A stretch of DNA of 64,000 nucleotides from Pseudoalteromonas rubra (lineage in GTDB: Bacteria; Pseudomonadota; Gammaproteobacteria; Enterobacterales; Alteromonadaceae): positions 1,178,001 to 1,242,000 of the forward strand of contig NZ_CP013612.1 of the NCBI RefSeq assembly GCF_001482385.1, read 5' to 3'. Under the pieces are notes generated by a model. The model searched no databases, was not told the DNA's origin, and was given only the letters and a program-made list of their open reading frames with translations. Shown piece by piece: positions 1 through 64,000 of this stretch (position 1 is the first letter of the stretch; every line of letters starts with the position of its first letter). Made by a program: the position numbers and the translations under genes.

Positions 1-113
1 GAGATCACAGAGCCTGACACTGATGAGCTTGAGATTTCAGCACTGGCTTGCTCATCGGCCATGCTGTGTCCTGCAAATGCCATTGCAAGTACAGATAAAT
101 AGAGTGATTTCAT
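1..113 (-). CDS. Second pore-former-like secreted protein of cassette A, N-terminal fragment
   Basis: The ATG at 113 follows a GGAAAG ribosome-binding site placed just after the stop of the GEVED gene. About 37 codons are visible before the window edge. They encode a signal peptide (MKSLYLSVLAMAFAGHSMA) and a Ser-rich start of the mature chain ending in GSVIS. The same GSVIS stretch occurs at the start of the 492-residue protein at 62156-63634, and the gene occupies the same fifth position with the same short spacer. I therefore infer that this is the cassette A copy of that MACPF/CDC-like protein. The rest of the gene lies outside the window, so its integrity cannot be judged. Confidence 0.75.
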   Translation of the reverse strand, partial: MKSLYLSVLAMAFAGHSMADEQASAEISSSSVSGSVI

Positions 114-991: not shown

Positions 992-2239
992 TTACTTCAA
1001 AACATCACTGTAGGCACTGTAATCGCGATAGTAAGCCAGGTTAGCGGCTTCGTAATCGATGCAGTAGTTGCCCTCTGGGTTGCGCTCACAATAATCGACC
1101 AGGTCGGCAAACAGGTTGGCATTAGCCCGGCTGGCTGTTTCTATTTCTGACAGTTGATTGAGTTGTCCAGCGTTAAACTGAGAGGCGTAGTAGCGCTGCA
1201 AGTTCTTGGCTCGGCGATAGGTGAGACGTTCCTCAATCCAGCGCGAAGTCAGCTCTTTAACCACTAACTTAGTGAGATAGTTTATGGCTTCGTATCCTTG
1301 GGCCGGGATCAATTGCTGTAAGTTGGAACCAGAGTCCAGATACCTTGCAACATAAGTGTCTGTCACATTGAAGTCGTCCAGTGACTGAAACTGGTTGATA
1401 TAATCCGTTTTGAGATAATTGACCGCAGATTCAAAGAGGTTGAAGCAAGGTTCAGGATTCAGCAAAGTACAGCTCATGATCCCATTTGGGATGATCTGTA
1501 GCAGGCGATTTGGCTCGCCGCCACTTTGATAGCCACTGATGGTAATTTTAACGGATTGGCGTTTCTCATCGTCCAGCTTTTGCAGCTGGCCATCGACTTT
1601 GACCTTGCCTATCCAGTCCACGCTCAGATAACCACCAATGGTGCGTTTATCGCTCTCGTTGCGATAATCAATTTTCATATTGATCACTACATTGGAGCCA
1701 TAGGCAAAGCCTTGTATAAACCCATCACCAAGGTTTGCCGCCTTATTACCCGGGTAGGCCTGTGCCAGATCCAATGCAGCCTGTGTTGGCTGATAGCCAG
1801 CATCGGTTGACGGCATTAGGATCCGGGATTTGGGCTTTATTGAGGAATATACGGTATAGGTGCCGGTGTATTTGTCGGCGCTTATGTCTTTGGCATAGTT
1901 GGCACCGGCATCAACTCGTACAGCTGGAAACTTAAAGCCTGCGTCAACTTTTCCGTCAATCAGTTTTAATGCCTGCTCGTAGCCCAGGTCAACACCCACA
2001 CGAAAATCAATGTTGGTATTGCCAAGGTGCTCGACGGTTTGGCCATCGACTGACTTTAACCCGAGTAACACGTCACCTTTACTCTGATAAGCCGTGCCGA
2101 GTGGCGCCAGGTCAACCACATTGGAGGTTGCTGCCTGCCCATGTATCTCGCTCAGCTTAGTCGGCGCAGGGTGTGATGTGGCAAGCGCTGGCAAAGTCGC
2201 ACAGGCCAGTGTGACTTGAATGAGTTTTGCGTAGTTCAT
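992..2239 (-). CDS. MACPF/CDC-like secreted pore-former candidate, cassette A
   Basis: The 415-residue chain starts at the ATG at 2239, which has GGAGAG upstream; an in-frame ATG 15 bp earlier would overlap that site. A signal peptide covers about residues 1-25. The order of elements resembles cholesterol-dependent cytolysins and MACPF proteins. First comes an amphipathic beta segment (VDAGANYAKDISADKYTG, TYTVYSSIKPKS). A GDGF-x4-AYG strand around Y180 recalls the SNVAYG strand of perfringolysin. A second amphipathic segment follows, then a Gly-Gly hinge at G240-G241. The C-terminal part carries Cys pairs (DYCERNPEGNYC). No undecapeptide or Ig-like domain 4 of classical CDCs is visible, so the target would not be recognised in the usual cholesterol-dependent way. 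The copy at 60019-61266 is also exactly 415 residues with Y180 at the same position. The fold is inferred from motif order, not from a profile search. Confidence 0.6.
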   Translation of the reverse strand: MNYAKLIQVTLACATLPALATSHPAPTKLSEIHGQAATSNVVDLAPLGTAYQSKGDVLLGLKSVDGQTVEHLGNTNIDFRVGVDLGYEQALKLIDGKVDAGFKFPAVRVDAGANYAKDISADKYTGTYTVYSSIKPKSRILMPSTDAGYQPTQAALDLAQAYPGNKAANLGDGFIQGFAYGSNVVINMKIDYRNESDKRTIGGYLSVDWIGKVKVDGQLQKLDDEKRQSVKITISGYQSGGEPNRLLQIIPNGIMSCTLLNPEPCFNLFESAVNYLKTDYINQFQSLDDFNVTDTYVARYLDSGSNLQQLIPAQGYEAINYLTKLVVKELTSRWIEERLTYRRAKNLQRYYASQFNAGQLNQLSEIETASRANANLFADLVDYCERNPEGNYCIDYEAANLAYYRDYSAYSDVLK

Positions 2240-2255
2240 GTTTGATCTCTCCATG

Positions 2256-2287: not shown

Positions 2288-4336
2288 TTAGTCTTTAAGA
2301 CTATTGAAGTAATCCTGATGCCAGGCTTCAGGAAGGTTGTTGAGCACATCCTCTGTGGTGATTTCACTGTCAGAGAACTCGTTGTCACTTTGCATTGCGA
2401 GATCACCAACTTGCAGGCCATTTGCAAACATGGTGAAGGTTTCGCCAGTGACGTGAGTCTCATCTGTGTCAGTGCGTTTCAGCTTGAGGTTGTAAACATT
2501 GTCGCTGTACTTCACTTCTTCGATGGCGGTGATCATCTCAATACCACTTTGGGTGCGGATTTGATCGCCTGTTTTTATTTTGTTAGCCCAGGCAGATAAA
2601 CCTGAAACTGTCACAACTGGGTGTGATTCAGTTAGCAGCAGAGTTTTACCAGAGGCAGTCGTTAGCTTGACCATTGGGATCAGTTCGACACCCACAGAAA
2701 TGTCTTCGATTTCAAGCGGGATGTGCTGATCTGGTGCAAACTGGCTGGCACCCAGCACGGAGTCACCGACACTGAGTTGTTCAATTGGCAGCTGCTTACC
2801 ATTGGCTAGCGTGATCAGTGAGCCTTTGGCCAGACAACTGTAGACCACCTGCATCGGTGGATGTTTGATGTCTTTCCAGTTACTCTCTGGCATATCTGAG
2901 CTGCCGATCACATAAGTAAAGTGACGTGTCATAACGCGTGGGCCACGTTGTTGCTCTACTTCAACTGCCAGATTCATGATCCAATGTGCATCCATGTAAC
3001 GGCCATATAAGGTCGCATCGCCGAAGACGCCCATGTTTCTTGGGATATTCCAGGACATACGTGTATAAGGGTAGTCAACACCGCCTACATCCTTGACGCC
3101 TTTTTGCAGCGTGATGTAGTCAGAGAACAGATTGATTGCATCAGATGCTTTGTAATCGTCTCCGATACGTGACGCACCGCCACCTTCACGTGTTTGAATA
3201 TAGATTTCGGAACCATAGTGCAGTCCATCAGGCTTGTCTGTAACGGGCTGACCCTGTGCATCTTTGATCAGTGACTTAGTACCTGCACCTGTATTTGGAT
3301 CATAACTGACAGCCAGTTGATGCCATTCAGGCGTATAGATCTTAGTGACCTCCCCCATCACTTCACGGAAACCACTAAAGGGGATAAGGAGCTTTAATTG
3401 CTCATTCGGGGTACCCTGGGCATACATGGCTTCGTAATCACAGTCTTGATATTTACGATTCAGACACACTTTGATGCGGTTCAGACTGGGATCCGCTTCG
3501 TTACGCTCTTTGACATCAACGGGATGTGTGATTTCATTTTCTAATATGCTGGTAGTGGTGCGGGCATAGCCATCGGGTAAAGTGGTTGCTAAGCCTGCTT
3601 CAGTATTGTTTAGAGTTGCCATCTTCGCCGTGGCACCATTGGTTTTATACACCCCTAGATCGGCCAGTAAGGTCTCTGGTGAATATTCAATAACGGATGT
3701 ACGAATTTCAGTGACTGTTTGACCATTGGCTCCCTCATATGACACGGTGAGGTATGCATCTGCAAAGATGCGTTCGGAGTTAATCAGTTTCGGTAGTACA
3801 TCTTCCATACGACCAACTGAGGCAACACTGACGCGCTTTTGTGGTTGATCGGATGTCCCTTGGCCAAAAAACTCGTTGAAGCTTGGCATGACCAGCTCTT
3901 CACCTTTTTCATTCATCAGGGTCAGGTCGATATAGGTGTAGTAAGTGGTACTGAATTCACTGTTGACCGCGGTTAATACCAGGTATTCCTGTCCGTCTTG
4001 GCGGGTCATTGAGCGCAGGCCCATGTGCTTGAAGAATGAACAAAGCTTGCCTGTTTGACAGTCTGATGACTGAGCTGTCGACATGATACCTGCCATTTCT
4101 GGCTGATTGGCTTTACGGTTTAGTGTTTCTTCCAAAGATCGAAACAGAAACGGGCGATTTTTTTCTGTAATGCCGTGTCTCGCAAGGCGTTGCTTGGCTT
4201 GATCCAATTCACCGAGTTGCTGAAATTTGACGATGCGTTCAGGGAAGCGCTCGGTTTCTTGAGTAAGAGGCGCTGAGATAGAAGCAAAAGAAGCTCCTCC
4301 CAGTGCAGCGGCAACTGCTAGGCTAACCAGTTTCAT
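2288..4336 (-). CDS. Secreted protein with C-terminal Hint autoprocessing domain, cassette A
   Basis: This 682-residue protein has a signal peptide (residues 1 to about 21) and a region of about 480 residues that I do not recognise. A Hint domain begins at Cys501. The splice-junction-like start is SCLAKGSLITLANGK, followed by LPIEQLSVGDSVLGAS. A TESHPV motif holds the block B Thr and His572, and a closing FANGLQVGD motif comes later. About 45 residues follow the Hint domain and end in a tail shared with copy B (EAWHQDYFNSLKD). Hint domains cleave the peptide bond before the first Cys through a thioester. Here cleavage would free the N-terminal region, possibly joined to a nucleophile as in hedgehog or bacterial intein-like domains. 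The Cys and TxxH residues are intact. AAGGA precedes the ATG. A terminator-like hairpin separates it from the protease gene. Confidence 0.8.
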   Translation of the reverse strand: MKLVSLAVAAALGGASFASISAPLTQETERFPERIVKFQQLGELDQAKQRLARHGITEKNRPFLFRSLEETLNRKANQPEMAGIMSTAQSSDCQTGKLCSFFKHMGLRSMTRQDGQEYLVLTAVNSEFSTTYYTYIDLTLMNEKGEELVMPSFNEFFGQGTSDQPQKRVSVASVGRMEDVLPKLINSERIFADAYLTVSYEGANGQTVTEIRTSVIEYSPETLLADLGVYKTNGATAKMATLNNTEAGLATTLPDGYARTTTSILENEITHPVDVKERNEADPSLNRIKVCLNRKYQDCDYEAMYAQGTPNEQLKLLIPFSGFREVMGEVTKIYTPEWHQLAVSYDPNTGAGTKSLIKDAQGQPVTDKPDGLHYGSEIYIQTREGGGASRIGDDYKASDAINLFSDYITLQKGVKDVGGVDYPYTRMSWNIPRNMGVFGDATLYGRYMDAHWIMNLAVEVEQQRGPRVMTRHFTYVIGSSDMPESNWKDIKHPPMQVVYSCLAKGSLITLANGKQLPIEQLSVGDSVLGASQFAPDQHIPLEIEDISVGVELIPMVKLTTASGKTLLLTESHPVVTVSGLSAWANKIKTGDQIRTQSGIEMITAIEEVKYSDNVYNLKLKRTDTDETHVTGETFTMFANGLQVGDLAMQSDNEFSDSEITTEDVLNNLPEAWHQDYFNSLKD

Positions 4337-4419: not shown

Positions 4420-7400
4420 TTACCATCTAGTAATTTTGAATTGAATGTCTTCAACTTCTCCGTAAGTGAAGGATTTACAAGCATCCTGCTTTAGTGGGTT
4501 TTGAGGGTTTTCCTCAAATTTGGCTCTTAAGGTGAACAGTTTGTCTCTGCTCACCCAGGGGAGGCGTATGATTTTGCTTGACGTGACACGGCAATACTCA
4601 ATTCCGTCTGTGCGGGAATGACAATCTGTGGTGTAGTAGTCATAGCTGTAATCATTGCTACCATTGTGACCTTCGTCTTTACTGAATGTGTCATCATGGT
4701 TTTTATCCAGCCAGACTGTGAAACGCGCGCCAATTTGATTGTTACCATACAGGTTATTTATGGTGGACCGTGGGAGGAAGTTGGTCGAGCCAACCACGGT
4801 CAGGTATGAATTGTCGCTGCGCGAGAAGTTGTTCACAGTAGTAAAGTTATACCCTGACGCATTGTACCCGGTTACTTCAGGCACCTCATGCAATACAGTT
4901 GAGTAATAATTGAATGTCAGCTTGTCGATGTACAAAACGCCTGCATTGCTTGGGTCGGTAATGCCTGTACTGCAGCTTGAAACCGGTTGCAATATCAAAA
5001 CCTGGCTGCTGGTATGACTGTCACTGCCATCCTGATAACGTGTGGTCAGCGATACATTGAACGTCCCGCCATTCTCAGGAAATTGAACCACTGGGTTTTC
5101 GTCACTACTGGTTTGATTATCAAACCCAAACTGCCAGCTGTAACCCGGCTGTTTAGTCTGATTGGCTGTACTGTTATTGATGAATTTAACTTTGTTCCCT
5201 TCCAGGATTTGATAGCTAAAGTCAGCAATGATCGGCAGGTTCGGAGAGTCTACATCAATCATAACGTCAATGACCTGGCCTGCATCTACCACGCCGCAAC
5301 TGTGAATGTAAGAGTATTTATCATCTGAGATAGCGATACGCATCAAACCTATTCCCGGCGGGATGGCATTGCTTAGTTCAAAAGCGGCGCTATTGCTTGA
5401 GATGGTGGCATTGCCAATTAGTTTCTCGGTATAGGAGAATTCTCCGTCTTTATCCGAATCAAACAGTACCGTGAGCTTCTTACCGCTAAGATCTTTGTCG
5501 AAAATAAGGCCGTAACTGCGTTGTCGGGCAAGCGGAATTCTATTTCCAACCTCTGATAAATATTCTCCGGTGATGTTATTGATGCCATATGTGGCAATAT
5601 TTAGACTATTGGTATGCACCTGAGGAGAATTCAGATATGGCGGGCAGTTTACGTCAGCAGCACGGCTAAAGAAGTGGCGATAAGCTGTGCTGATATTGTT
5701 ATCACTGAACTGAACTTCTACAGAGGCACGTGCCAGAATATCGAGCGGCAACGTGTGTGTTTGCTGTAAAAAAGGATAGATAGGCTGATTATCACTCTTA
5801 CGCCAGGTACTGCCAGTACCATCGCCCCAATCGGCATGGATTTGTTCTATGTTATCAATCGCCAGGTGGCTGATATCATAGCTTAATTCGTTATAACTAA
5901 AACGGGCGTTGGCGTTTAGCGTTGACAAGTTGTTGTCTGCTACAATGCCGACGCCTAACAAAACATCTGTAATATCGGCTTTACGCTGGTCTGCATTTTT
6001 ACCTGAGATATCGATGAAGGGTGTCTGTGCAGCCAGACAGTAGCCGTATTCATCCATACTCATATTAGGAAACATACAGCCTGCTGTATTTGCGCGCAAA
6101 AACACTTTGAAGGCATCCTGAATCGACCAATGCTTAGTTTTTACCAGCTCGTAAAAAGCTTTGCGTAGCACACCACCATTGGCATGCTCTGTTTTGCCCG
6201 TCGAGAAATCAGCGACATGGTCGATACTGGTTCCGTCCCAGGAGGGTAATTCATAGAAGCGGACGCCCTGATCGGCATAGATGGCATCCCAGCCAAACCA
6301 CCATTTACGGTTTTGGCCGTACTGGCCTGCCTGCTCAGTAAATTGTTTGGTGAAGTATTCTGACTGACTGTAAGCGCCATCGGCCTGACTCTGAAAGTAG
6401 TCCATAACAGCGATAGTCACTAAATCAGAGAAGCCCTCGTTAATGGCACCATCTATGCCTTCAGCACCTATACCTGAGTTCCAGCTGGTGATGGCGTGGC
6501 CTATCTCGTGTGCAGCAATACTTAGCGTGGCTTGTGAATAGAAATAATAGCCATCACCGGAACCATAGTTGACAAACTCGCCGTCCCAGAACGCTTTATT
6601 GGTACCAAATATGGTGTTGCTATGTACTTTTTGTTTAAGTGGCTTGATGCAATAGCCATTGCTTGAGCAGTCTGAGGACTGGTTTGGGTATAAGTCCGCA
6701 AATTGATTGTGAAAGTACTGCATCACAACACCCGCATTGAAATGCGCTTCGCTGGCATGGCTGTAGGTGAACCAAGTATCAAAGTTGCTGGTTACCTTAG
6801 TGACATCAAAGTCCTCGTTGTTTGCTCCGCAGGAGTATGACACCGGGTTCGTATCTGAGCTTCTGGCATCAAAAGTGCTCAGGTAGGGGTTTTCGAGCGT
6901 ACATGAATCCAGCTCTTTTTTGACGACTAAGGGATATCCGCCAAATTGGGCAAAAATGGCATTGGGATTGGTGTCAGTAAATAGCAGGCGTTGTCCGACA
7001 GGTGTGAATTCGTCGTACTGATACGCCGTACAGGCTGCCATGCTGTCTGGCTGCGGGGAATAACAGATCGCGCCTAGTTTATCATTACCGCCTATCCCAC
7101 CTCCGGGTACATAGCTATTATCCAGTACAGGGTTTGCCGAAACGGTTTCTTTTGAATAGAAGGACGCACTAGAATGATGACGGATCACGGTGCCTTGTGC
7201 GCTGTCGACAACGAGCTGCTCCTGAATTCCTTTACGGTTGACCTCGATAACTGTCACGTTAAGTAACTTTCCGTTTACAACTAAATACGCAGAGTTTGAC
7301 TCATTAATTTTCGAGTGATCGTCCTGATAATGATTTGCAACGCTTGCTGCGAGGTCTGGCTGGTGGCCTGTGGCATGCTCAGCGACTTTAACTTCACCAC

Positions 7401-7731
7401 TAAGTAGCTTGCCCATGCTCTGAATAACATTGCCGTGGGTATCTCGCGCGATAACCAGCTGACTATCAAGTACAGGTTTGCCCTGATAGTAAGCCCGGTA
7501 GTGCTCGTACTTTGGCTGCGTACCCGCGACTTTTTCTAGCCGATAGGTCAATGCAGTAGTTACACGCTGAGCCTTAGTTGTCAGAGAGGTGTGTTCTGGT
7601 TGAGCCGCTGTTGGTAACTGTGACCAAAGGTGCTGCTGATTTAGTAGCGCTTGAGACTCGATAGAAGCTGCGGCTTGTGTACTAAACAAGGTAACAACTC
7701 CGGCGCCAAGCACTGCGCAAAGGCGTGTCAT
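4420..7731 (-). CDS. Secreted M4-like metalloprotease with PKD and GEVED modules, cassette A
   Basis: The 1103-residue precursor has a signal peptide (about 1-23). An FTP-type propeptide follows, with YEHYRAYYQGKPVLDSQLV near residues 85-105. The peptidase domain has HEIGH at 408-412 and the third zinc ligand at E432 in GAINEGFSD, the 20-residue spacing seen in thermolysin. The stretch matching the thermolysin catalytic His region reads EHANGGVLRKAF, without the usual His-x-x-Ser-Gly, so it is a divergent M4-like enzyme. After the catalytic part come a degenerate GEVED-like module (about 715-830, with DSDKDGEFS), a PKD domain (about 834-914) and a terminal GEVED module ending GEVEDIQFKITRW. 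The first gene of the cassette would be expected to mature itself outside the cell and could activate the pore-former-like proteins. Substrate unknown. Confidence 0.85.
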   Translation of the reverse strand: MTRLCAVLGAGVVTLFSTQAAASIESQALLNQQHLWSQLPTAAQPEHTSLTTKAQRVTTALTYRLEKVAGTQPKYEHYRAYYQGKPVLDSQLVIARDTHGNVIQSMGKLLSGEVKVAEHATGHQPDLAASVANHYQDDHSKINESNSAYLVVNGKLLNVTVIEVNRKGIQEQLVVDSAQGTVIRHHSSASFYSKETVSANPVLDNSYVPGGGIGGNDKLGAICYSPQPDSMAACTAYQYDEFTPVGQRLLFTDTNPNAIFAQFGGYPLVVKKELDSCTLENPYLSTFDARSSDTNPVSYSCGANNEDFDVTKVTSNFDTWFTYSHASEAHFNAGVVMQYFHNQFADLYPNQSSDCSSNGYCIKPLKQKVHSNTIFGTNKAFWDGEFVNYGSGDGYYFYSQATLSIAAHEIGHAITSWNSGIGAEGIDGAINEGFSDLVTIAVMDYFQSQADGAYSQSEYFTKQFTEQAGQYGQNRKWWFGWDAIYADQGVRFYELPSWDGTSIDHVADFSTGKTEHANGGVLRKAFYELVKTKHWSIQDAFKVFLRANTAGCMFPNMSMDEYGYCLAAQTPFIDISGKNADQRKADITDVLLGVGIVADNNLSTLNANARFSYNELSYDISHLAIDNIEQIHADWGDGTGSTWRKSDNQPIYPFLQQTHTLPLDILARASVEVQFSDNNISTAYRHFFSRAADVNCPPYLNSPQVHTNSLNIATYGINNITGEYLSEVGNRIPLARQRSYGLIFDKDLSGKKLTVLFDSDKDGEFSYTEKLIGNATISSNSAAFELSNAIPPGIGLMRIAISDDKYSYIHSCGVVDAGQVIDVMIDVDSPNLPIIADFSYQILEGNKVKFINNSTANQTKQPGYSWQFGFDNQTSSDENPVVQFPENGGTFNVSLTTRYQDGSDSHTSSQVLILQPVSSCSTGITDPSNAGVLYIDKLTFNYYSTVLHEVPEVTGYNASGYNFTTVNNFSRSDNSYLTVVGSTNFLPRSTINNLYGNNQIGARFTVWLDKNHDDTFSKDEGHNGSNDYSYDYYTTDCHSRTDGIEYCRVTSSKIIRLPWVSRDKLFTLRAKFEENPQNPLKQDACKSFTYGEVEDIQFKITRW

Positions 7732-17254: not shown

Positions 17255-17264
17255 TTCTCCCTCG

Positions 17265-17297
17265 GGCCTGAGTAGGTTGTTCAGGCCTTTTCTTTTT
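17265..17297 (+). terminator. Terminator of the TonB receptor gene
   Basis: A perfect 7-bp stem GGCCTGA/TCAGGCC with a 9-nt loop is followed by TTTTCTTTTT, 10 bp after the stop codon. Confidence 0.88.
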
Positions 17298-17729
17298 GTT
17301 CTGGCATGAGATAAACGCGCAGCGCTGGATATATATGAGTGATCCTGTATTCGTGATTTTTTCTCATGCTACTTTGCTATCTTATCTGAATACTTTCCGT
17401 ATGCCTGCGCGCATAAATGCACTTGCTTTGAATTAGGCGGAATTTACCCGCAAAAACCCGGATAAATGATGCATTTCCCTCATTTCAATTAGTGTATTGC
17501 ACAGAATTTATTAACTTTTTCATATCGTAAGTTGAATAATATTTTAGTCTTGCCTGTCAATGTGCCGAGTAAACATAGAGTACCCAATTGGACGGCTAAG
17601 CTTATTGATAGATATCCAGTTTTTATGCCCCTGGCCGACCATACAGAGCACGAGAAAAGTATTAGCAATTGTTTGAAATGTGCCGCTACAGTGCTGGCAA
17701 TGACGGCAAACTAGTCTTACCAACGAGTT

Positions 17730-17820
17730 AAGGCGGTGGCTATCCCTAGCAGGATCCCCTTGGATCATTGAGTTTGTCTGCCCACAAACTGATTCCAAAT
17801 AAGCCACCGCCTTTTTATTT
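17730..17820 (+). ncRNA. Candidate structured leader or small RNA: three-way junction with a U-tail
   Basis: A perfect 12-bp closing stem (AAGGCGGTGGCT at 17730-17741 with AGCCACCGCCTT at 17802-17813) encloses two hairpins. These are GATCC-CCTT-GGATC (17753-17766) and AGTTTGT-CTGCCC-ACAAACT (17771-17790). The 3' side runs straight into TTTTTATTT, which is terminator-like, 26 bp before the transporter ATG. It may be a small RNA, or an attenuator in the leader of the transporter-kinase-hexosaminidase operon. A small palindromic mobile repeat is the main alternative. The rest of the 17298-17845 gap shows no convincing gene; two short frames there lack homology or a good start. Confidence 0.5.
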
Positions 17821-17845
17821 CTAAGCTCACGATAAGGTAAGACTC

Positions 17846-53937: not shown

Positions 53938-54019
53938 TGCCTGAAATCTGGCGCAGCATACCTTTCAGCTGACTGGCTGTGGTAAGATCGCGCGATTACT
54001 CCCTGACGTGTTTTATTCC

Positions 54020-54523
54020 ATGGATCAGACTCAATTTTGGCAGCTCATTGCCATTGATAACCAAACCAAAGACAAAGCGGCACAATTAAAAGCCAGGCTT
54101 GAAACGCTCTCTGATACTGATGTCGCCGATTTTGATAGTTATTACAGTAAACAGCTCAGACGTTTATGGCACTGGGATATCTGGGGCGCAGCTTATGTTA
54201 CTTGCGGTTGTAACAGTGAATATGACTTTCTGGATTTCTGCAACTGGTTACTGACTCAGGGTGAAGAGCTGGTAGATCAGGTGTTGGCCCAGCCAGACAG
54301 CCTGGCAAACATTGATGACATGCCTCTGCGCGACAATTTGCCCTATCCGTATTGTGACGAATTAGATCTGACAGCAGGACTGCTCTACGAGCAAAAAACT
54401 GAGCAGGAATTGCCATATCACAACACAGTGAACTATGCGCCACAGGGCAAGCAGTTTAAAAATAAACCCAAAGTGTTAAAGCAAACCTACCCACAATTGT
54501 TTGCAAAATACTGGCAGGGGTAA
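54020..54523 (+). CDS. DUF4240 protein
   Basis: This 167-residue protein starts at the ATG at 54020 (a GTG 12 bp earlier is less likely). It has MDQTQFWQLI and the YYSKQLRRLWHWDIWGAAYV and YDFLDFCNWLLTQGEE blocks typical of DUF4240. The domain is widespread and of unknown function. No membrane helix is seen. Confidence 0.82.
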   Translation: MDQTQFWQLIAIDNQTKDKAAQLKARLETLSDTDVADFDSYYSKQLRRLWHWDIWGAAYVTCGCNSEYDFLDFCNWLLTQGEELVDQVLAQPDSLANIDDMPLRDNLPYPYCDELDLTAGLLYEQKTEQELPYHNTVNYAPQGKQFKNKPKVLKQTYPQLFAKYWQG

Positions 54524-55093: not shown

Positions 55094-57922
55094 ATGCCTA
55101 TAAACAAAACCCCCATTGCGGCCTTTTTGTGTTGTTTCAGTTGTCTGAGTCATGCTGATACACAGTGGGTCGACAAACACGCACTATTAAACCAACAGCA
55201 CTTGTGGCAGGAAATTGAGAACCAGCTAAAGAAACAGGATCGAGCCAAGACCGCTGCAGTGGGTGGGGAACTTAGTGATAACGGAATACGTTATCAGCGG
55301 GTGAAAACCATAGGGAATACCAAGCGCTTCGAACATTATCAAGTTTATTATCGTGGTATACCAGTCATCGGTGGTCAATTTGTGCTATTCAAAGACAGTA
55401 TCGGTAAAGTCTTGCAGGGTCTGGGTGCAACTTTGAGAGCGCAAGAGCTATCGGGAGCCACTGATGGACGTTATTTCCGTTTGCCTCAGGCTGACATAGA
55501 GCAACGACTGGCGGCAGGTTTTGACTTAAAGCCCGAGACCAAGTTGCAAGATCTCAGGCGTGCGTATTTGACTTGGCAAGGCCGTTTAATAGGCGTGTTT
55601 GAGGTCACCGTCACTTCGAAGGAGGGCATACGCACTCTTACCATCGATGCGGATACACTGAATGTCCTTAAGTCTGAGCAAGGCATTATGCACTCTTCCC
55701 GTGAAGAGCAACGCGCAGAGCAGCTTTCTGCTGACGGGCAATACGTTGCTGCTGGTGGCATAGGCGGCAACGAGAAAATGGGGGCTATATGTTATTCACC
55801 GCAGCCTTCGACAATGAAAGCCTGCCTCAGGTATCAATATGATGAAACGACCAGCCCATCAACGGAGCTGTTATTTAATGATATCAGCGACACCGATCGC
55901 CCGCTCATTTTTGCCGACTTTGATGGTTATCCATTTGTTGTCAGAAAAGATGGAGGGCGCTGCTTTTTAGAAAACCCGTATGTGCAGACTATTAACTATT
56001 TAATCCATGAATCAGAGCCACATAAATTTGATTGTAATGATAATATTGAAAATTTTGATCAAACTTTAGCCGATCAAGTTTATTATCATCTGTTTAGTTA
56101 TGGTCCTGAGAATGAAGCTCATTTTTATGGAGGGCTGACCATGCAGTTTTTTCATAAGCAGCTAGATGAGCTATTTCCCGAACAAGACGCTCATTGCACG
56201 GATAATGGTTACTGTCTCCATAAACTAAAACAGAGGGTACATCATAATTTTCTTGGTATGAACCATGCGTATTGGGATGGTACTTATACTAATTTTGGTA
56301 ATGGCGACAGTTATTTTAATTATTCGCTAACTACGTCGAGCGTAGTCGCACACCAGGCTGCGTTTGCATTAACACAATGGAATAGTCAGCTGGAAAGTCG
56401 AGGGGAAGCCGGTGCTTTTTATCAAGCGTTTTCTGATATTGCGAGCCTTGCCGTACTGGATTACTTACAGCGCAGAGTGTCTGGCAGCTTTAGCACCTCT
56501 GAGCCATTTTTATCGCAAATACTGGATGGCACTGGTCGCCCGCAAGACGATAAAAAGTGGTGGCTCGGTTGGGATGTTAAAACTCAGGATATAGGGCATC
56601 GCTATTTTGCACTTCCGTCAATGGATGGCAGTGGCATTGACCATCTGATCATGTATCGTGCGAATATGTCGAGCTATAGTGTGGGTGGCATTTTCAGAAA
56701 AGTGTTTTATGAACTGGTTAAAACCTACGGCTGGACAATCAAAGAAGCGTTCAAGTTATATCTGAAAGCGAATGTATCTTGCCTTCCGGCCAATGCCAGT
56801 TTTGATGATGCTGCAGCCTGCTTGATACTGGTTGCAGATTCGGATGTTGTGAATAAGCCTGTACAGGAAGCACAAAATAATGTTGATGGGGCGTTGCACC
56901 TGGTGGGGCTGGTGGCGCAATCATCGGAGATTTCCAGTCTGGCAGTCACGGCGGTACCTCAGTATGACGAGTTCAGGTATTTAGTTGGGACCCTACCTAT
57001 TAGTGAAATAGAGCGTATCTCTGTTGACTGGGGGAATGGGGCCAATGAAGGCTGGTCTCGTGGTTCCGGTAATGCGATTTATCCGTTTTTACAGAGGGCG
57101 CATGTTATTGAACCTGATTTACTGACGCGTTTTAAGATCAACGTAGTCAAAACAGACGGTGAGGAGTTGCTTGCTTACCGTGATTATTATTCACGCGCTC
57201 TGGGCGTGGCTTGCCCACCGTGGTTTCGAGAAGAAAATACAGGCCTGATGAGTCACGTGTTGATTAATGGTCACAGGTTACAATTACTGCCACAGAACTA
57301 TCAAGAGATATTGGACCAGCCCTTGAATTTATACCTTAAGCAGCGAAACACCATTGAGCTCGGTGCCTATTCTGTTGGACAAGAAGTAACGGTATTACTG
57401 GATACCAACCGCAATGGAGCTTATGAAAAGCAAGAAGTCTATCTAGTCGAAGAGATAATGGATACTGGGCTGCTCACTTTTTCTTTGCCTGATGGCTTCC
57501 AGCCGGGCAAAATAATGATGCGTGTGGTTGTCGGCTCCAGATATGGTTTTCTCTTTTCATGTGGAGAAGTAGATGAAGGCCAAGTTTTCGATGTAAAAGT
57601 TGACTTTTCAGGTGCTGGCGAGTGGTCTCGCACTGATTTTAAGTTTGAAATTCAAATCGGCAATAACGTTAAATTCACTAATAGTCTTTTGCCAGATAAT
57701 GCTAAATCCTCAGAAAAACTTGAACAACCGGTGAATGTAAATAGCTCAACCTATGTCCCCTTCTCTGGCGCCACTTCGTATCCTGTAGATTTTCAGACTT
57801 GCTTAGAATTGGTATCTGAAAAAAGATCTCAACGCTATACATATAGTCAATTATCAGATTTATTTGCCTGCCGAACAAAAAAAGACATATCTCACATATA
57901 CAGCGTGCTCCATCCGACTTAA
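55094..57922 (+). CDS. M4-like pseudoprotease (zinc site lost), cassette B
   Basis: This 942-residue paralogue of the cassette A protease keeps the signal peptide, an FTP-like propeptide (FEHYQVYYRGIPVIGGQF) and the overall peptidase fold, including GGIGGNEKMGAICYSPQPS and KWWLGWDVK. The HEIGH motif has become H420-Q421-A-A-F424, and the third ligand site is Q444 in GAFYQAFSD instead of NEGFSD. The catalytic Glu, second zinc His and zinc Glu are thus all replaced, so no activity is expected. The GEVED-like module after the peptidase part is kept (CGEVDEGQVFDVKVD), but the PKD domain is reduced and the terminal GEVED is absent; the last 100 residues are unlike copy A. The frame is intact, which argues that it is retained for a non-catalytic role. 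Confidence 0.85.
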   Translation: MPINKTPIAAFLCCFSCLSHADTQWVDKHALLNQQHLWQEIENQLKKQDRAKTAAVGGELSDNGIRYQRVKTIGNTKRFEHYQVYYRGIPVIGGQFVLFKDSIGKVLQGLGATLRAQELSGATDGRYFRLPQADIEQRLAAGFDLKPETKLQDLRRAYLTWQGRLIGVFEVTVTSKEGIRTLTIDADTLNVLKSEQGIMHSSREEQRAEQLSADGQYVAAGGIGGNEKMGAICYSPQPSTMKACLRYQYDETTSPSTELLFNDISDTDRPLIFADFDGYPFVVRKDGGRCFLENPYVQTINYLIHESEPHKFDCNDNIENFDQTLADQVYYHLFSYGPENEAHFYGGLTMQFFHKQLDELFPEQDAHCTDNGYCLHKLKQRVHHNFLGMNHAYWDGTYTNFGNGDSYFNYSLTTSSVVAHQAAFALTQWNSQLESRGEAGAFYQAFSDIASLAVLDYLQRRVSGSFSTSEPFLSQILDGTGRPQDDKKWWLGWDVKTQDIGHRYFALPSMDGSGIDHLIMYRANMSSYSVGGIFRKVFYELVKTYGWTIKEAFKLYLKANVSCLPANASFDDAAACLILVADSDVVNKPVQEAQNNVDGALHLVGLVAQSSEISSLAVTAVPQYDEFRYLVGTLPISEIERISVDWGNGANEGWSRGSGNAIYPFLQRAHVIEPDLLTRFKINVVKTDGEELLAYRDYYSRALGVACPPWFREENTGLMSHVLINGHRLQLLPQNYQEILDQPLNLYLKQRNTIELGAYSVGQEVTVLLDTNRNGAYEKQEVYLVEEIMDTGLLTFSLPDGFQPGKIMMRVVVGSRYGFLFSCGEVDEGQVFDVKVDFSGAGEWSRTDFKFEIQIGNNVKFTNSLLPDNAKSSEKLEQPVNVNSSTYVPFSGATSYPVDFQTCLELVSEKRSQRYTYSQLSDLFACRTKKDISHIYSVLHPT

Positions 57923-58012
57923 TTGAATGAATTGTTGTAGGGTTTCTCCGGCACACCGCTGGTGAGACCTGAGCACTTGCTCAAATAACTCTCCATATTA
58001 AGGGAATAAAAT

Positions 58013-59965
58013 ATGAAACCTCTGTATTTATCCATTGCTATGGCATTGGGGACGGTCTCCGTCATGCCTGACACTTTTGCTGGTTCATTAAAAGCTGCCA
58101 GTGATTCAGTTTATCAGCAAGACATGCTGATTAAAAATGAGCGTTTAAACGCGCGACTGGCACAGCATGGCCTGAGCAGAAAGAATCGGCCTCAATTGTT
58201 TTCGCTGATTGAGCAAAGGCTGGAGCTAGACAAGTTGGTAACAGAAAACCTGAACCCTAGCTCATTACAAAACTGTTTGAGCGGCAGACCTGAACTGTGC
58301 TCTTTCTTTAAACATATGGGTATTGAAGTCGCCACTAGTAATGCAAATGGTGAGTCCTATGTAGTGTTATCTGCGTTAAACAGTAAAACGGTATCGACCG
58401 ATTATACATTGATAGATCTGCACTTAACCAATGAGAAAGGCGAGCAGCTCACCCAACTGGCATACAATGAGTACTTTGGCGACGGGCAGGAGGCTAAACG
58501 CAAATCCGTTTATTCCTTCGCAAAGGTACAAGATATTCTTCCTAAGCTTGCCGCTTCAGAGCGTATTTTTGCCGATGGTTGGGTAACCTCAGTATATAAG
58601 GGGGCCGACAATAAGCAAATTGTTGAAGACCGAAACATTGTGGTGGAGTATTCTAAGGATACATTGCTGGCTAAGTTAGGCTATTTTGCTCAGCCGAGAG
58701 CAGGCGAGTCTGGTACAGAGGGCGTCTCACTACTTCCTTTGGCGGGGCGAGATGGTTTCGAAACGACCATTAATAAGCCCATTGATAACCGCTCTGAAGG
58801 CGGTGCGGATGTGCCTGATGGTAAGATTGTAGTATGCCTCAATCGAAATTATGGCGATTGTGATTATGAAAATATTTACCCAATAGGCACACCAACCAGC
58901 GAAACTAAATTAAAGGTCCCGTTTCAAGGGAGCTTTGACGTGATGGGTAAGGTGACGCGCATCTATCTGCCGGATTTTACAACACTGGGAGTTCATGAGG
59001 AAAACGGCGTAATAACCCTAGTCGAGAACCCGGTAGTTGATAAGCCTGCCTTCATGAATCACGGAACGAATATCTTTATACAGACAAAAGAGGGTGGCGG
59101 GGCAGCTGCAATTGGTGATTCTAGTTATCAAGACATCAGCGATTTTTTCGCAAAGAAATTAAACCTGCGCTACGACAAGTGGAATGGGATAGATCGGACA
59201 ACCATATCCTGGAATATTCCGCAAGATGAGGGGATGTTTGGAGACGCCACATTATTTGGCAGATACCAGGATACCCACTGGATAATGCATTTTGCGCTTG
59301 ATAATGTGTCACGTCCGGGCAGACCGCCACGAGCGGCTTCTTTTGTCATTGGCTCTACAGACATGGACAGTGGCTGGGGTGACACAGACCACCCCCAAAT
59401 GCAAATTGTCTACAGTTGTCTGGCCGAAGGCACTTTAATCACTTTACCAAATGGTAAGCAGCTTCCAATAGAACAGCTTGAAGTGGGCGACCAGGTGTTG
59501 GGGGCCAGTGAGTTTTCACCTGCTAACCATCTTGCTCTGACAATTGAGGATATTTCTGTTGGAGTTGAAACCATTCCTATGGTCCAGCTCAAAACTAAAT
59601 CGGGTAAAACGCTGTTATTGACAGAATCTCACCCTGTTGTGATGCAATCAGGTCAGGCTATATGGGCCAGCAAGGTTGAACAAGGAGCGCAAATCTTAAC
59701 TGAAAATGGGCTGGAGATGATCACGCATATCGCTGAGGTTGAGTTTAGCGATAAGGTCTATAACCTTCGTTTGGGCCGCGGTAAAGATGATCCGGAATAT
59801 CAGCTAGGTGAATCCTTCAGTATGTTTGCAAATGGCCTGCAAGTGGGTGATCTGGCAATGCAAAGTGAGCATGAGTTTAGCAATGAGGTCGAAACGACAG
59901 AAGATGTACTTAATCGCTTGCCTCAGGCCTGGCATCAGGACTACCTGAACAGTCTGAAGCAGTAG
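58013..59965 (+). CDS. Secreted protein with C-terminal Hint domain, cassette B
   Basis: This 650-residue paralogue of the cassette A Hint protein has a signal peptide (about 1-24), an unrecognised N-terminal region of about 440 residues and the Hint domain from Cys469 (SCLAEGTLITLPNGK). TESHPV carries His540, and FANGLQVGD closes the motif set. The catalytic Cys and TxxH are intact, unlike the protease of the same cassette. The tail (QAWHQDYLNSLKQ) is kept. Similarity to copy A is strong in the Hint domain and scattered over the N-terminal region, where insertions and deletions occur. Confidence 0.82.
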   Translation: MKPLYLSIAMALGTVSVMPDTFAGSLKAASDSVYQQDMLIKNERLNARLAQHGLSRKNRPQLFSLIEQRLELDKLVTENLNPSSLQNCLSGRPELCSFFKHMGIEVATSNANGESYVVLSALNSKTVSTDYTLIDLHLTNEKGEQLTQLAYNEYFGDGQEAKRKSVYSFAKVQDILPKLAASERIFADGWVTSVYKGADNKQIVEDRNIVVEYSKDTLLAKLGYFAQPRAGESGTEGVSLLPLAGRDGFETTINKPIDNRSEGGADVPDGKIVVCLNRNYGDCDYENIYPIGTPTSETKLKVPFQGSFDVMGKVTRIYLPDFTTLGVHEENGVITLVENPVVDKPAFMNHGTNIFIQTKEGGGAAAIGDSSYQDISDFFAKKLNLRYDKWNGIDRTTISWNIPQDEGMFGDATLFGRYQDTHWIMHFALDNVSRPGRPPRAASFVIGSTDMDSGWGDTDHPQMQIVYSCLAEGTLITLPNGKQLPIEQLEVGDQVLGASEFSPANHLALTIEDISVGVETIPMVQLKTKSGKTLLLTESHPVVMQSGQAIWASKVEQGAQILTENGLEMITHIAEVEFSDKVYNLRLGRGKDDPEYQLGESFSMFANGLQVGDLAMQSEHEFSNEVETTEDVLNRLPQAWHQDYLNSLKQ

Positions 59966-59984
59966 TCATGGATTGACAAATACT

Positions 59985-60002
59985 AAGGCCCTAACGGGCC
60001 TT
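59985..60002 (+). promoter_or_regulatory. Intercistronic hairpin before the pore-former gene (copy B)
   Basis: A 7-bp perfect stem AAGGCCC/GGGCCTT with a 4-nt loop lies just before TCATGGAG, the ribosome-binding site of the next gene. It corresponds to the hairpin at 2256-2274 in copy A. Confidence 0.6.
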
Positions 60003-60018
60003 TCATGGAGATATGATA

Positions 60019-61266
60019 ATGAAAATACGTAATGTGGTTTCGATTATGTTGTTACTGGGAGCCTCCTTGTTATTGATAAAGGCTTATGCTCACGCCGTAG
60101 CTGTCCATGAAGTAGAAGAGCGAACGATCATTGATCTGAGTAACGACCTTGTGCCGCTGGGAACGGCTTACCAGAGCAAAGGTAAGCAATTTTTAGGGCT
60201 GCAATCTGTGCTTGGCAGACAAGTCGAACATCTGGGCAACTCGCATATAGATTTTAGAGTCGGTGTTGATTTGAGTTATCAGCAAGCCCTGAAGCTTGTT
60301 GATGGTAAGGTTGATGCTGGCTTCGAATTGCCTGCGGTGCGAGTGGATGCTGGTGCAAACTATGCCAAAGATATCAGTGCTGACAGGTATACCGGTACCT
60401 ACACTGTCTATTCTTCCATTAAACCCAAATCGAGCATGTTGGTTCCCATTAATGATTCGGGCTATCAGCCGACACTAGCCGCGAAGGAATTGGCAAAGGC
60501 GTATCCCGGAAACAAGGCGAGCAACCTGGGTGATGGATTTGTACATGGATTTGCGTATGGCTCAAATGTGGTCATTAACATGAAAATTGACTACCGAAAT
60601 GAAACGGACAAACGCATCATCGGAGGCTACTTGAGTGTCGACTGGATAGGCACTGTGAAGGTTGACGGTGAACTTCAGAAAATAGCCGAAGATAAGCGAA
60701 AGTCAGTTAAGATCACGATCAGCGGTATTCAAAGTGGGGGAGATCCCAACAGGCTGCTACAAGTCATACCTAACGGTATCATGCACTGCACATTGTTCAA
60801 CCCTGAGCCCTGCTTCAACCTGTTTGAAGCCGCGATACATTATCTAAAAACAGACTATGTCAATCAGTTTAATTCACTGGATGACTACAATATTACTGAC
60901 GTATATACAGCCAGTTATCTGGATTCCGGTGCAGATCTCCAGCAGCTTATCCCAGATAGTGGCTATACACCGGCTAACTACTTGACTCAATTGATCGTCA
61001 AAGAGCTGACGGCACGCTGGATAGATGAGCGATTGGTCTATCGCCGTGCAAAAAACCTGCAGCGTTATTACGCAGCACAATTTTCTGCACAGCAACTTGA
61101 ACAGCTGCAGGATATTGAGACTAAGAGCCGTGCTAACGCTAACTTATATGCCGATTTGGTGGATTACTGTGAACGCAACCCGGAAGGTAATCACTGCATT
61201 GATTACGAGGCCGATAATCTGATTTATTTACGTGATTATAGTGCCATCAGTGATGTATTAAGATAA
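60019..61266 (+). CDS. MACPF/CDC-like secreted pore-former candidate, cassette B
   Basis: This 415-residue protein starts at the ATG at 60019, 8 bp after GGAG (the ATG at 60013 is too close). It has a signal peptide of about 27 residues. The chain aligns without visible gaps to the copy A protein for most of its length: the same VDAGANYAKDISAD segment, the AYG strand at Y180, the Gly-Gly hinge and the NPEGN-type Cys-rich end. The long identical stretches point to strong constraint. As in copy A, the fold is inferred from motif order. Confidence 0.6.
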   Translation: MKIRNVVSIMLLLGASLLLIKAYAHAVAVHEVEERTIIDLSNDLVPLGTAYQSKGKQFLGLQSVLGRQVEHLGNSHIDFRVGVDLSYQQALKLVDGKVDAGFELPAVRVDAGANYAKDISADRYTGTYTVYSSIKPKSSMLVPINDSGYQPTLAAKELAKAYPGNKASNLGDGFVHGFAYGSNVVINMKIDYRNETDKRIIGGYLSVDWIGTVKVDGELQKIAEDKRKSVKITISGIQSGGDPNRLLQVIPNGIMHCTLFNPEPCFNLFEAAIHYLKTDYVNQFNSLDDYNITDVYTASYLDSGADLQQLIPDSGYTPANYLTQLIVKELTARWIDERLVYRRAKNLQRYYAAQFSAQQLEQLQDIETKSRANANLYADLVDYCERNPEGNHCIDYEADNLIYLRDYSAISDVLR

Positions 61267-61275
61267 GGATATCCC

Positions 61276-62145
61276 ATGAATATACTCAGATTTTTGTTGG
61301 TTTTACTCATCTTGTGTGTAGCTTTAAACCGGTCCGCTCTGGCGTTAGCGTCAGAGCAAAACTCACATACACACCAGCAAGCCAGGTTCAGCGAGTTAGG
61401 TGATTTACTTACGGTGGAGCAGGCGAAGGGCCGATTTGCCTGGCTGAGCAAGTGTTACGATGGCTTGTTGGTTGAGCTGTGGGAGCGGATGCATGGCACA
61501 ACTGACATTGTCGGGAAAGAAGAAAAGCTTCGCCAGCTAAAAGAGCTATGGCTCTCTGACGCTGCATTAGCAGCGGGTAAAGCTCAGTACCTGACCTTTG
61601 CAAACGCTGATTTTACCAACCCATATCAATGGTATGCAGGCACCAGTGTGGGTCAGGCATGCGCGATATTGCCTCCTGAATATGAGCCGGTTGCTCTTAA
61701 AACCACAGTGCTGCCGAGATCGTATTGCGATAATCGCAGTTATGATCACGAATGGGAGTGGATCTCTGAAGTAACGGTGGATGACTTTACGCACCAGTCT
61801 GAAAAACACGGCCACAGCTTGATTTCGGGAAAAGTGATTTTACTTAGGGCGAATCAAACATCGAAAGTCACCATTAAGCCGGGAAATAAAGAACCGGAGT
61901 TTCCTTCATACGTGGCTGTTCGGGTATGGTTAGACTGGGATCACAATGGTCAGTTTGAGCAATCTGAAATGGTGTATCACTCCGCATCATCAGGCGTTTT
62001 TAAGTTTTTGTTGGATGTGCCCGCAACAGTGCCTGAAGGTTTGACTATGATGCGCATTGCTACCGATGCTGGCGGAGGCTCGGACAATGCGTGTACTCGT
62101 ATTCATTATGGTGAAGTCGAAGACTATCTGGTGACGGTTCGTTAA
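61276..62145 (+). CDS. Secreted GEVED-domain protein, cassette B
   Basis: This 289-residue protein has a signal peptide of about 25-30 residues ending near LALAS, a middle region (WLSKCYDGLLVELWERM) and a C-terminal GEVED module with DWDHNGQFEQSE and GEVEDYLVTVR. It aligns over its whole length with the copy A protein, including the FTNPY-x-WYAGTS stretch. It starts 9 bp after the pore-former stop. Role unknown. Confidence 0.8.
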   Translation: MNILRFLLVLLILCVALNRSALALASEQNSHTHQQARFSELGDLLTVEQAKGRFAWLSKCYDGLLVELWERMHGTTDIVGKEEKLRQLKELWLSDAALAAGKAQYLTFANADFTNPYQWYAGTSVGQACAILPPEYEPVALKTTVLPRSYCDNRSYDHEWEWISEVTVDDFTHQSEKHGHSLISGKVILLRANQTSKVTIKPGNKEPEFPSYVAVRVWLDWDHNGQFEQSEMVYHSASSGVFKFLLDVPATVPEGLTMMRIATDAGGGSDNACTRIHYGEVEDYLVTVR

Positions 62146-62155
62146 GGAAGATGAT

Positions 62156-63634
62156 ATGAAACCAATTTACCCTGCATTACTGGCGATAGCGCTGGCAGTT
62201 GTGAGCTGTTGTACATACAGTGCTGATACTCAGATAACTAATAACAACCTTACAGGCTCTGTCATTTCAGGGCTTATCAACGATCACATAGAGATCGGCA
62301 CGGCTTATGATAGCCAAAAAAAGCGTTTTCTGAACGTTCAGCCAATCAAAGGTGTTACTGACGAAAGCTTTGGTAATACCGAGCTGCAATTTAAAACCGG
62401 CATCGACATGAATTACGATGACATGCTGAGCATGCTTAATGGCAGTGTTGATACTGATGTGAATTTTCCTGTGGTGCGTGTGTCTGCCGGAGCTTCGCTT
62501 GCAAAAGAAATGGCATCCAGCACGTATTCAAGCTCTTACACATTCAGTGCTTCCAGCACGCCGAAAAAGCGTGTGTTTTTGCCAGTGAATCAAAATATTG
62601 GATATACCCTATCACAGGTTGGAGAGAAAATAGCCCAGAATCACCAGACTCAGATACAAGATTTGGTTGGTGATGAGTTTGTAACGGGTATTGAGTATGG
62701 TGCAAATGTCCTGGTTAATTTAAAGATTGATTATGGGAGCAACAAAGATAAGTCTGATATCGGTGGGTACCTGGATGTTGATTTGTACGGGGGCGCATTT
62801 AATGTCGGTGGGCAACTTAATTATTTGCAGCACGATATCAAATCGTCGGTCAAAATTACAGTGAGGGCGGTACAGCAAGGGGGCGACCCAAAGCAGCTAC
62901 TTACTGTTATACCTAACAATATCATTACCTGCTCTTTGGATAATCCACAGCCTTGTTTTGACATGTTTTATGAGGCGGTTAAATACGCGAAAACAGGATT
63001 TAATAGCCAGCTAACATCGCTCAGCGATTACAATGTGGTGCGTTATTACACAACCCGCTACGACAAATCATCTTTGCCATTACGCGCGCTGGTGCCAGAT
63101 TATCAGATAGTGAGAAATGCAACCAAGTGGTTGATCAGTGAACTCGAAGATGACTTTAAACAAGCTATTTTGGATGAGCAAAGAGCTGCAAGTTTGCTCA
63201 CCAGCTATTATGCCTATCTGCCCGAGACACAACGCCTGGCTGTCGAACGCATCAAAGATCTGGCCTATGACAATGCCTGGTTTTCCTTCACCGCAGCCCA
63301 GTTCTGTCGTGATAACCCCTTTGGATATGTTTGCGAGAATAAAATTCAGGAAATGAAAAATGCTTGTGTGCAGCGTGGGAAGTCTTGTCCTGCTAGCTAC
63401 GATATAACCGATTTACAATTACCTACCAGCGACGCTCAGGATTGGAAGCAGTGCGAGCTGGCCAGGCAAGAGGCTGTTCGTTCTGGGGCCATTTCACAGG
63501 CACATAGTGTCCTGTTCCGCAAGTTGCGCTGGGCACCTACTTTCATCGATTCAGGCGCACCCGCGCGTGGGATTTTGAACTGGCGACTGTGTGAGGGGGC
63601 ATTAAGTACTTATGGTATGGCCTTTCAACAATAA
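62156..63634 (+). CDS. Second MACPF/CDC-like secreted protein, cassette B
   Basis: This 492-residue protein has a signal peptide (about 1-22). It is a divergent relative of the 415-residue protein in the same cassette: same order of segments, GDEFVTGIEYGANV with Y181 at the place of Y180, and the Gly-Gly hinge at G242-G243 (QQGGDP). A C-terminal extension of about 90 residues is rich in Cys (FCRDNPFGYVCE, NACVQRGKSC). Two related but unequal pore-former-like proteins side by side fit a two-component toxin with a short and a long partner. The family assignment is inferred from pattern only. Confidence 0.6.
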   Translation: MKPIYPALLAIALAVVSCCTYSADTQITNNNLTGSVISGLINDHIEIGTAYDSQKKRFLNVQPIKGVTDESFGNTELQFKTGIDMNYDDMLSMLNGSVDTDVNFPVVRVSAGASLAKEMASSTYSSSYTFSASSTPKKRVFLPVNQNIGYTLSQVGEKIAQNHQTQIQDLVGDEFVTGIEYGANVLVNLKIDYGSNKDKSDIGGYLDVDLYGGAFNVGGQLNYLQHDIKSSVKITVRAVQQGGDPKQLLTVIPNNIITCSLDNPQPCFDMFYEAVKYAKTGFNSQLTSLSDYNVVRYYTTRYDKSSLPLRALVPDYQIVRNATKWLISELEDDFKQAILDEQRAASLLTSYYAYLPETQRLAVERIKDLAYDNAWFSFTAAQFCRDNPFGYVCENKIQEMKNACVQRGKSCPASYDITDLQLPTSDAQDWKQCELARQEAVRSGAISQAHSVLFRKLRWAPTFIDSGAPARGILNWRLCEGALSTYGMAFQQ

Positions 63635-63878: not shown

Positions 63879-64000
63879 ATGTACAAAGTAATGACCGGTC
63901 TTTTATGTTTTTTGACCTGCACGGCAGTGGCAAGTGACGCCCAGTACTTTTGGCGGTTTGGTGATGGGTCTGTTTCTCATGAAGCCGAGCCTGAGCATCA
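63879..64000 (+). CDS. Secreted protein, N-terminal fragment at the window edge
   Basis: The ATG at 63879 is preceded by AAGGAG (5 bp spacing). The 40 visible codons encode a signal peptide (MYKVMTGLLCFLTCTAVAS) and the start of a mature chain (DAQYFWRFGDGSVSHEAEPE). The protein continues past the window edge. It may belong to the cassette B neighbourhood, but it is separated from it by 244 bp and a weak hairpin. Family unknown. Confidence 0.7.
   Translation, partial: MYKVMTGLLCFLTCTAVASDAQYFWRFGDGSVSHEAEPEH

Follow-up and report, generated by a model that had tools for sequence, protein, structure and literature searches.

The window analyzed here, 64,000 nucleotides of the Pseudoalteromonas rubra genome (assembly GCF_001482385.1, contig NZ_CP013612.1, positions 1,178,001 to 1,242,000), carries two copies of a gene cassette that probably encodes a secreted multi-component pore-forming system, built around three paralogous proteins of predicted MACPF/CDC fold, S (short), L (long), and X. 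The core is predicted for L and extended to S and X by homology; the genes stand in an operon-like order that recurs in several genera, together with an M4-type metalloprotease, a Hint protein, and a small GEVED-domain protein.

Organization of the cassettes in P. rubra

The open reading frames (ORFs) at 55094-63634 on the plus strand (cassette B) and at 7731-1 on the minus strand (cassette A1) confirm the duplicated five-gene cassette on opposite strands recognized in the initial annotation. The order in both is protease-Hint-S-GEVED-L, so that the GEVED gene, previously placed last, lies between S and L. In cassette B it is separated from S by 9 bases and from L by 10. When S was used as a query against its own genome (5.9 Mb, three contigs), six places were found, corresponding to three S and three L genes and giving three cassettes, A1, A2, and B. 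Cassette A2 is complete and stands in tandem with A1, immediately beyond the left edge of the window. In A1 and A2, L is followed by a sixth gene, X (368 and 373 residues), which cassette B does not have. The third cassette and X had been missed because both lie outside the window. The genes are as follows; numbers such as L007 denote loci, not the protein L.

55094..57922, plus, cassette B gene 1: 942 residues, M4-type metalloprotease homologue with FTP-like propeptide and GEVED domain
58013..59965, plus, cassette B gene 2: 650 residues, C-terminal Hint domain and conserved tail of ~37 residues
60013..61266, plus, cassette B gene 3 (S): 417 residues (415 from an inner ATG), short protein, MACPF/CDC-like by homology with L
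61276..62145, plus, cassette B gene 4: 289 residues, small GEVED-domain protein
62156..63634, plus, cassette B gene 5 (L): 492 residues, long MACPF/CDC-like protein (predicted)
63879..64000, continuing to 64598, plus, start of the optional seventh gene: PKD domain, C-terminal GlyGly-CTERM
4420..7731, minus, cassette A1 gene 1: 1103 residues, M4-type metalloprotease with intact HEIGH ... NEGFSD, PKD and GEVED domains
2288..4336, minus, cassette A1 gene 2: 682 residues, Hint protein
992..2254, minus, cassette A1 gene 3 (S): 420 residues
125..982, minus, cassette A1 gene 4: 285 residues, GEVED protein
1..113, minus, cassette A1 gene 5 (L): first codons, the rest beyond the window edge; complete at L007:13636-15114
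L007:12508-13614, cassette A1 gene 6 (X): after the A1 L gene, outside the window
L007:1641-11892 (genome C2:1164640-1174891), whole cassette A2 including X: left of the window

Cassettes B and A1 share 36% identity in the protease, 51% in the Hint protein, 72% in S, 58% in the GEVED protein, and 79% in L, values far beyond chance. Signal peptides were judged by eye as hydrophobic N-termini, from which we infer that the cassette proteins are exported by the Sec route.

Distribution and gene order

A pattern scan with the L alignment over one genome each from 84,980 species yielded 42 loci, spread over 37 contigs with two loci on each of five contigs: 31 loci are from Pseudoalteromonas, four from Shewanella, two each from Reinekea and Zooshikella, and one each from Thalassomonas, Aestuariibacter, and an uncultured member of the Saccharospirillaceae. 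With the ORFs labeled by BLASTP against our own cassette proteins, the order protease-Hint-S-GEVED-L-X was found in 35 of the 42 loci and the identical order minus X in another five; in the remaining two, Hint and protease are swapped (L047) or the contig ends within the protease gene (L039). The conservation of the five-gene order outside its own genome, on which the initial annotation had made its reading depend, is thus borne out in 40 loci and several genera. The median intergenic gaps from protease to X, 88, 47, 10, 11, and 57 bases, are as in an operon.

Within Pseudoalteromonas, 39 of 108 genomes have an L/S match, our own included. A sample of the class gave matches in 5 of 369 genomes, namely our own and four in which other proteins match distantly, and a comparison of L with plasmids gave four, three on Pseudoalteromonas replicons of 0.9-1.3 Mb and one weak. 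Interrupted matches, spread over two frames or containing a TAA, were seen for S or L in individual genomes (G061:C1:1099267-1100438 and G107:C2:489306-490783; likewise for L in G009 and G080). Parts of other proteins in L053, L054, L055, and L056 are distantly related to the S/L core, one of them with TPR repeats and another with HYDIN-like Ig domains and a glycine-rich tail; by sequence similarity, the S/L-type domain is wider than the cassette.

S, L, and X form one family with a predicted MACPF/CDC fold

S and L share ~34-38% identity. The X profile, made from 25 of the 39 X proteins, aligns with that of L over 343 columns with an hhalign probability of 98.7% (E 1.9e-16) and with that of S with 98.3% (E 1.4e-14), against 0.5% for a control with the Hint profile; at the level of sequence and profile similarity, S, L, and X are paralogues of one family. 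The predicted structure of L comprises a core (residues about 35-306), formed by a bent four-stranded sheet with helical clusters between strands 1 and 2 and between strands 3 and 4, a helical part (about 316-425), and a Cys-containing C-terminal extension. The core matches the structures of stonustoxin, EaCDCL, perfringolysin O, pneumolysin, MPEG-1, and C8, so that the MACPF/CDC core suspected at the outset is predicted for the 492-residue L and, by homology, its paralogues S and X would share the fold. Structural matches to residues about 316-425 (16 of 50 rows) were set aside as unspecific helical arrangements.

Sequence searches alone did not reveal this relationship. The Pfam MACPF and thiol-activated cytolysin profiles gave no match at E <= 1 to two S, one L, the 35 sequences of the L alignment, or three X; nothing decisive came from Pfam and NCBIfam searches with S and L, nor from searching PDB sequences with L by itself or with the profile of S, and the best PDB match of the X profile (E 0.028) was, like the others, taken as chance. 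Databases annotate S and L as hypothetical proteins or 'internalin'. The latter name was rejected for L, as the L sequences gave no match to any leucine-rich-repeat family; leucine-rich-repeat proteins adjoin the cassette at L044:15048-17711 and L049:12924-15596 and are a possible source of it.

The motif of the CDC-like (CDCL) family is F/Y-F/Y-Xn-YGR with a downstream glycine pair (Evans et al. 2020). YGR is absent from S, which has YGS, and from L, which has YGA, each then followed by GGDP/GGEP. The X proteins of A1 and A2 have YGR and no glycine pair at the corresponding place, and in no X type seen do the two occur together. Inspection by eye showed that S, L, and X also do not contain the tryptophan-rich undecapeptide of cholesterol-dependent cytolysins, as this motif is given in PMC7527733. 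Of the CDC-like pair that had been proposed, the short/long pairing stands, and the motif that defines the published family is absent from S and L; nor is the system a two-component one, there being three pore-former-like paralogues and a mere pair only in the B-type copy, which has no X.

The three proteins might instead be non-lytic and, with the protease, GEVED, and PKD proteins, form a non-perforating assembly serving as a surface matrix or in adhesion or nutrient capture. Non-lytic MACPF proteins exist, many of the partner domains (GEVED, PKD, GlyGly-CTERM) are extracellular binding modules, and the missing YGR arginine of S and L and the lack of an X type with both motif elements point the same way. 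We nevertheless consider a non-lytic assembly rather unlikely, since the two inter-strand segments of L, both about 40 residues long and with a modest beta-amphipathic pattern, fit membrane hairpins, and the pairing of short and long paralogues resembles that of the CDC-like pair (PMC7527733).

The Hint protein retains the residues of the N-terminal step

The Hint domain is C-terminal and falls below the cut-off in Pfam and NCBIfam; the best PDB match of its profile is a bacterial intein-like domain (E 4e-7). The alignment comprises 28 of 45 Hint proteins, from the 42 loci and our own three. Ser0, Cys1, Asp45, Thr69, and His72 are invariant in all 28, in agreement with the self-cleaving protein of the initial annotation as far as the N-terminal step is concerned. 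The C-terminal His-Asn required for full intein chemistry is absent, positions 143-145 being V/I/L-G-D/G in 28 of 28, and with no terminal Asn the domain is not a splicing intein. The second Cys of Hedgehog (C143) is likewise replaced by Val, Ile, or Leu in all 28. Beyond position 145 there is no toxin domain, only a tail of ~37 residues in which Gln149, Leu165, Trp172, Asp175, and Asn178 are invariant. The domain is possibly hedgehog-like; its Asp is at position 45 and that of Hedgehog at 46, an equivalence read from sequence alone. The N-terminal part, ~465 residues in the cassette B protein, has no Pfam or NCBIfam match, is unrelated to L by profile comparison, and gave in its residues 1-70 only a weak PDB match, to a flagellar protein (E 0.0084).

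Four Hint proteins of the same genus lie outside the cassette, and all four keep Cys1, Asp45, Thr69, and His72. Three are placed between two M4-type proteases, behind an RTX-repeat gene (RTX in the two loci checked, L078 and L080, in which all four flanking proteases have HExxH).

L078:3509-14603 and L080:3043-14595, similar in L079: S/L-free cluster of RTX-repeat protein, M4 protease, Hint protein, and second M4 protease
L077:9358-11268, minus: single Hint protein of the same family, with unrelated peptidase and hydrolase genes next to it

As Hint and M4 genes are found together without S and L, the Hint-M4 unit is a separable module, which would suit a set for prey digestion or nutrient scavenging in which protease and Hint protein act alone and the pore formers are merely co-secreted, with no activation chain. 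The additional M4-type genes adjoining some cassettes (L014, L042, L048, L050) fit this explanation as well, which is nonetheless improbable: protease and Hint gene precede S in order in 40 of the 42 loci, the two others being those with the swapped pair and the cut protease. Protease-like genes next to a cassette were seen at L014:12743-15322, L021:34-1947, and L041:30-2216, as well as in L042, L048, and L050.

Proteases with an intact zinc site and a conserved, predicted pseudoprotease

Among 44 cassette proteases longer than 900 residues, a count that leaves out protease ORFs of <=900 residues (L014, L021, L041, L042, L048, L050) and the cut protease of L039, HExxH and the third Glu are kept in 38 (A-type). 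The zinc site is lost in the remaining six (B-type), the window copy at 55094-57922 and its five orthologues in L009-L013. In the window copy, HQAAF replaces HExxH and the third ligand is Gln instead of Glu; all six have another residue in place of the second His and Gln at the position of the third ligand. A weak match to the FTP propeptide was found in some cassette proteases. The product of 55094-57922, taken for an active protease by the initial annotation, has thus lost its zinc-binding and catalytic residues; it should be an inactive enzyme, a pseudoprotease, and only the A-type proteases can then be the activator.

The six B-type cassettes have further traits in common: X is absent after L (in L009, 0.9 kb after L are covered), and the PKD/GlyGly-CTERM gene then follows. 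They form a clade in the joined S and L tree (100/100), in which our own A1 and A2 are sisters (100/100). The five contigs with B orthologues each also hold an A-type cassette (L018-L022), at an L-to-L distance of 66-80 kb; on our own contig, the L genes of B and A1 are 64 kb apart. No internal stop occurs in the B genes of the six genomes. The median pairwise ratio of nonsynonymous to synonymous substitution rates (dN/dS) in the B-type set is 0.183 for the protease (0.124 in the catalytic-fold stretch) and 0.048-0.097 for the other four genes, rough values as the median dS is >1 for most B genes. The A-type set, five cassettes excluding our own genome, gave 0.080 for the protease (0.035 in the catalytic-fold stretch) and 0.009-0.040 for the other genes; the protease was cut at fixed codons, not at domain borders. 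The dead B protease seems to be still under purifying selection, and our reading of the ratios is that it is conserved but less constrained than the A-type enzyme. That cassette B is a decaying, functionless copy is very improbable, for although loss of the zinc site and of X in all six and the higher ratios of B than of A genes would suit it, the absence of internal stops, the low ratios, and the persistence of a fully supported clade in six genomes do not, and plain decay was rejected on dN/dS with the reservation that dS exceeds 1 in many B pairs.

Accessory and neighboring genes

The GEVED domain is common to the small GEVED protein and the cassette proteases; its profile, built from an alignment of 23 of 45 proteins, gave nothing decisive against the PDB. 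The seventh gene, coding for a PKD-domain protein, is near 18 of the 42 loci, in 16 of them directly downstream and on the same strand; L038, L042, L044, L048, L049, and L050, where the matches are PKD domains inside other proteins, are left out of this count. Among nine members tested, five have a GlyGly-CTERM scoring at or above the NCBIfam cut-off, one of them just at it. As rhombosortase processes GlyGly-CTERM proteins in Vibrio (PMC6219818, PMC3237569), surface anchoring of the PKD protein is suggested by analogy. In ten representative loci, the seventh gene is the sole flanking ORF of at least 150 residues common to several genera, and two Pseudoalteromonas loci have two further such ORFs in common.

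Other genes were noted near the cassettes. A DUF4240 protein is encoded at 54008-54523 of the window, upstream of cassette B, and L009-L013 have an ORF of 171 residues at the same place. A TonB-dependent receptor directly follows X at L018:12792-15320, a P. rubra A-type locus, and L019-L022 have an ORF of equal length there. Between the window's two cassettes, genes for a TonB receptor, an MFS transporter, and a GH20 hexosaminidase lie on one strand (14255-22556), perhaps an amino-sugar or chitin utilization set.

Proposed mechanism and significance

MACPF/CDC proteins have central roles in immunity and in attack by bacteria. In the pore-forming system that we favor, L, with its S-like core and C-terminal extension, would bind the target and start a ring, most of which would be supplied by S; the models for this are the two-component CDC-like toxins and the membrane attack complex of complement. 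X may be a third subunit, which could initiate, terminate, or restrain assembly or protect the producer. The A-type M4 metalloprotease of the same operon could mature one or more of S, L, and X outside the cell; such activation by extracellular cleavage is argued from analogy. In the B copy, X would have been lost and the protease would now be an inactive, preserved partner; the cassette could provide alternative S and L subunits, their processing depending on the active A-type protease elsewhere on the contig. In the Hint protein, a thioester at Ser-Cys1 might free the N-terminal domain, through either hydrolysis or transfer to a nucleophile, without splicing, and the GEVED and PKD/GlyGly-CTERM proteins would serve as extracellular binding or surface-anchoring parts. 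Possible targets are bacteria, algae, protists, or animal cells.

A bolder version, to which we give little credence, is a complement-like three-part pore with two processing systems of its own for maturation, a dedicated metalloprotease and a hedgehog-like bacterial Hint protein. In the latter, release of the N-terminal domain would be coupled to the addition of a small nucleophile (a lipid or sterol, from target or producer), by which a cassette part would be tethered to a membrane, and the dead B protease would be a retained escort, with B pores switched on only by the A-type enzyme.

MACPF/CDC pore formers are known; of the operon type, no description was found among the matches listed from open-licence literature, and some of these proteins may have been listed earlier, in the supplementary trees of PMC7527733. 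CDC-like genes occur in many phyla, with short/long pairs reported mostly from Bacteroidota genera (PMC7527733); here, a strongly conserved gammaproteobacterial operon joins three pore-former-like paralogues with their own protease and a Hint protein. With this cassette one could test how bacteria build a many-part pore and activate it with their own rather than a foreign protease, why a dead protease has been kept alongside a working one, and whether or not hedgehog-type Hint chemistry takes place in a secreted bacterial protein.

Comparison with known systems

Stonustoxin and other proteins of the MACPF/CDC/SNTX branch have 15% identity to L in the alignment; stonustoxin is made of fish venom subunits whose C-terminal domains are different ones, and it is not known to be encoded in a comparable operon. 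The cassette proteases share the M4 catalytic fold of the thermolysin-like GEVED/PKD metalloproteases, a weak FTP match in some, and, in the A-type, HExxH with the third Glu, and differ from them in the B-type copies, which are predicted pseudoproteases. The Hint protein resembles the HINT polymorphic toxins in being a secreted bacterial protein with the Hint domain towards the C-terminus; those toxins carry a variable C-terminal toxin domain after HINT, whereas the cassette protein has a short conserved tail (PMC3482391).

With Drosophila Hedgehog, the cassette Hint domain shares Cys1, Thr69, and His72 in the same numbering, and Asp45 may correspond to Hedgehog Asp46; the Hedgehog residues are Cys258, Asp303 (D46), Thr326, and His329 (PMC9163320, PMC4695875). 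Asp303 is reported to be absent from inteins and to be needed for cholesterol transfer, not for the first step (PMC9163320, PMC4695875), and inteins can have their own Asp with a similar coordinating role (PMC4695875). The cassette protein has V-G-D in place of the Cys at 143 and the ~37-residue tail instead of a sterol-recognition region; with no Cys at 143, it is not filed as a Hog protein.

The cassette resembles the CDCL toxins of Bacteroidota (Elizabethkingia, Bacteroides), with which it shares Gram-negative producers, a MACPF/CDC core, here predicted for L, and a short and a long paralogue encoded together: S with 417 and L with 492 residues in one cassette, L bearing the C-terminal extension. 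It differs in its three paralogues, in S and L without YGR, for which reason its proteins are not filed as CDCL, and in the M4 protease, Hint, GEVED, and often PKD/GlyGly-CTERM genes; the E. anophelis CDCL operon is reported to contain no further co-transcribed genes (PMC11169675). Both members of the known CDCL pairs depend on proteolysis, and a single long subunit initiates the ring of short subunits (PMC11169675, PMC11952106); where the known cases involve proteolysis (PMC7527733, PMC11169675, PMC11952106) the cassette encodes a protease. The B. fragilis pair is activated by a C11 protease of the target cell (PMC11169675), whereas the cassette brings a protease of its own.

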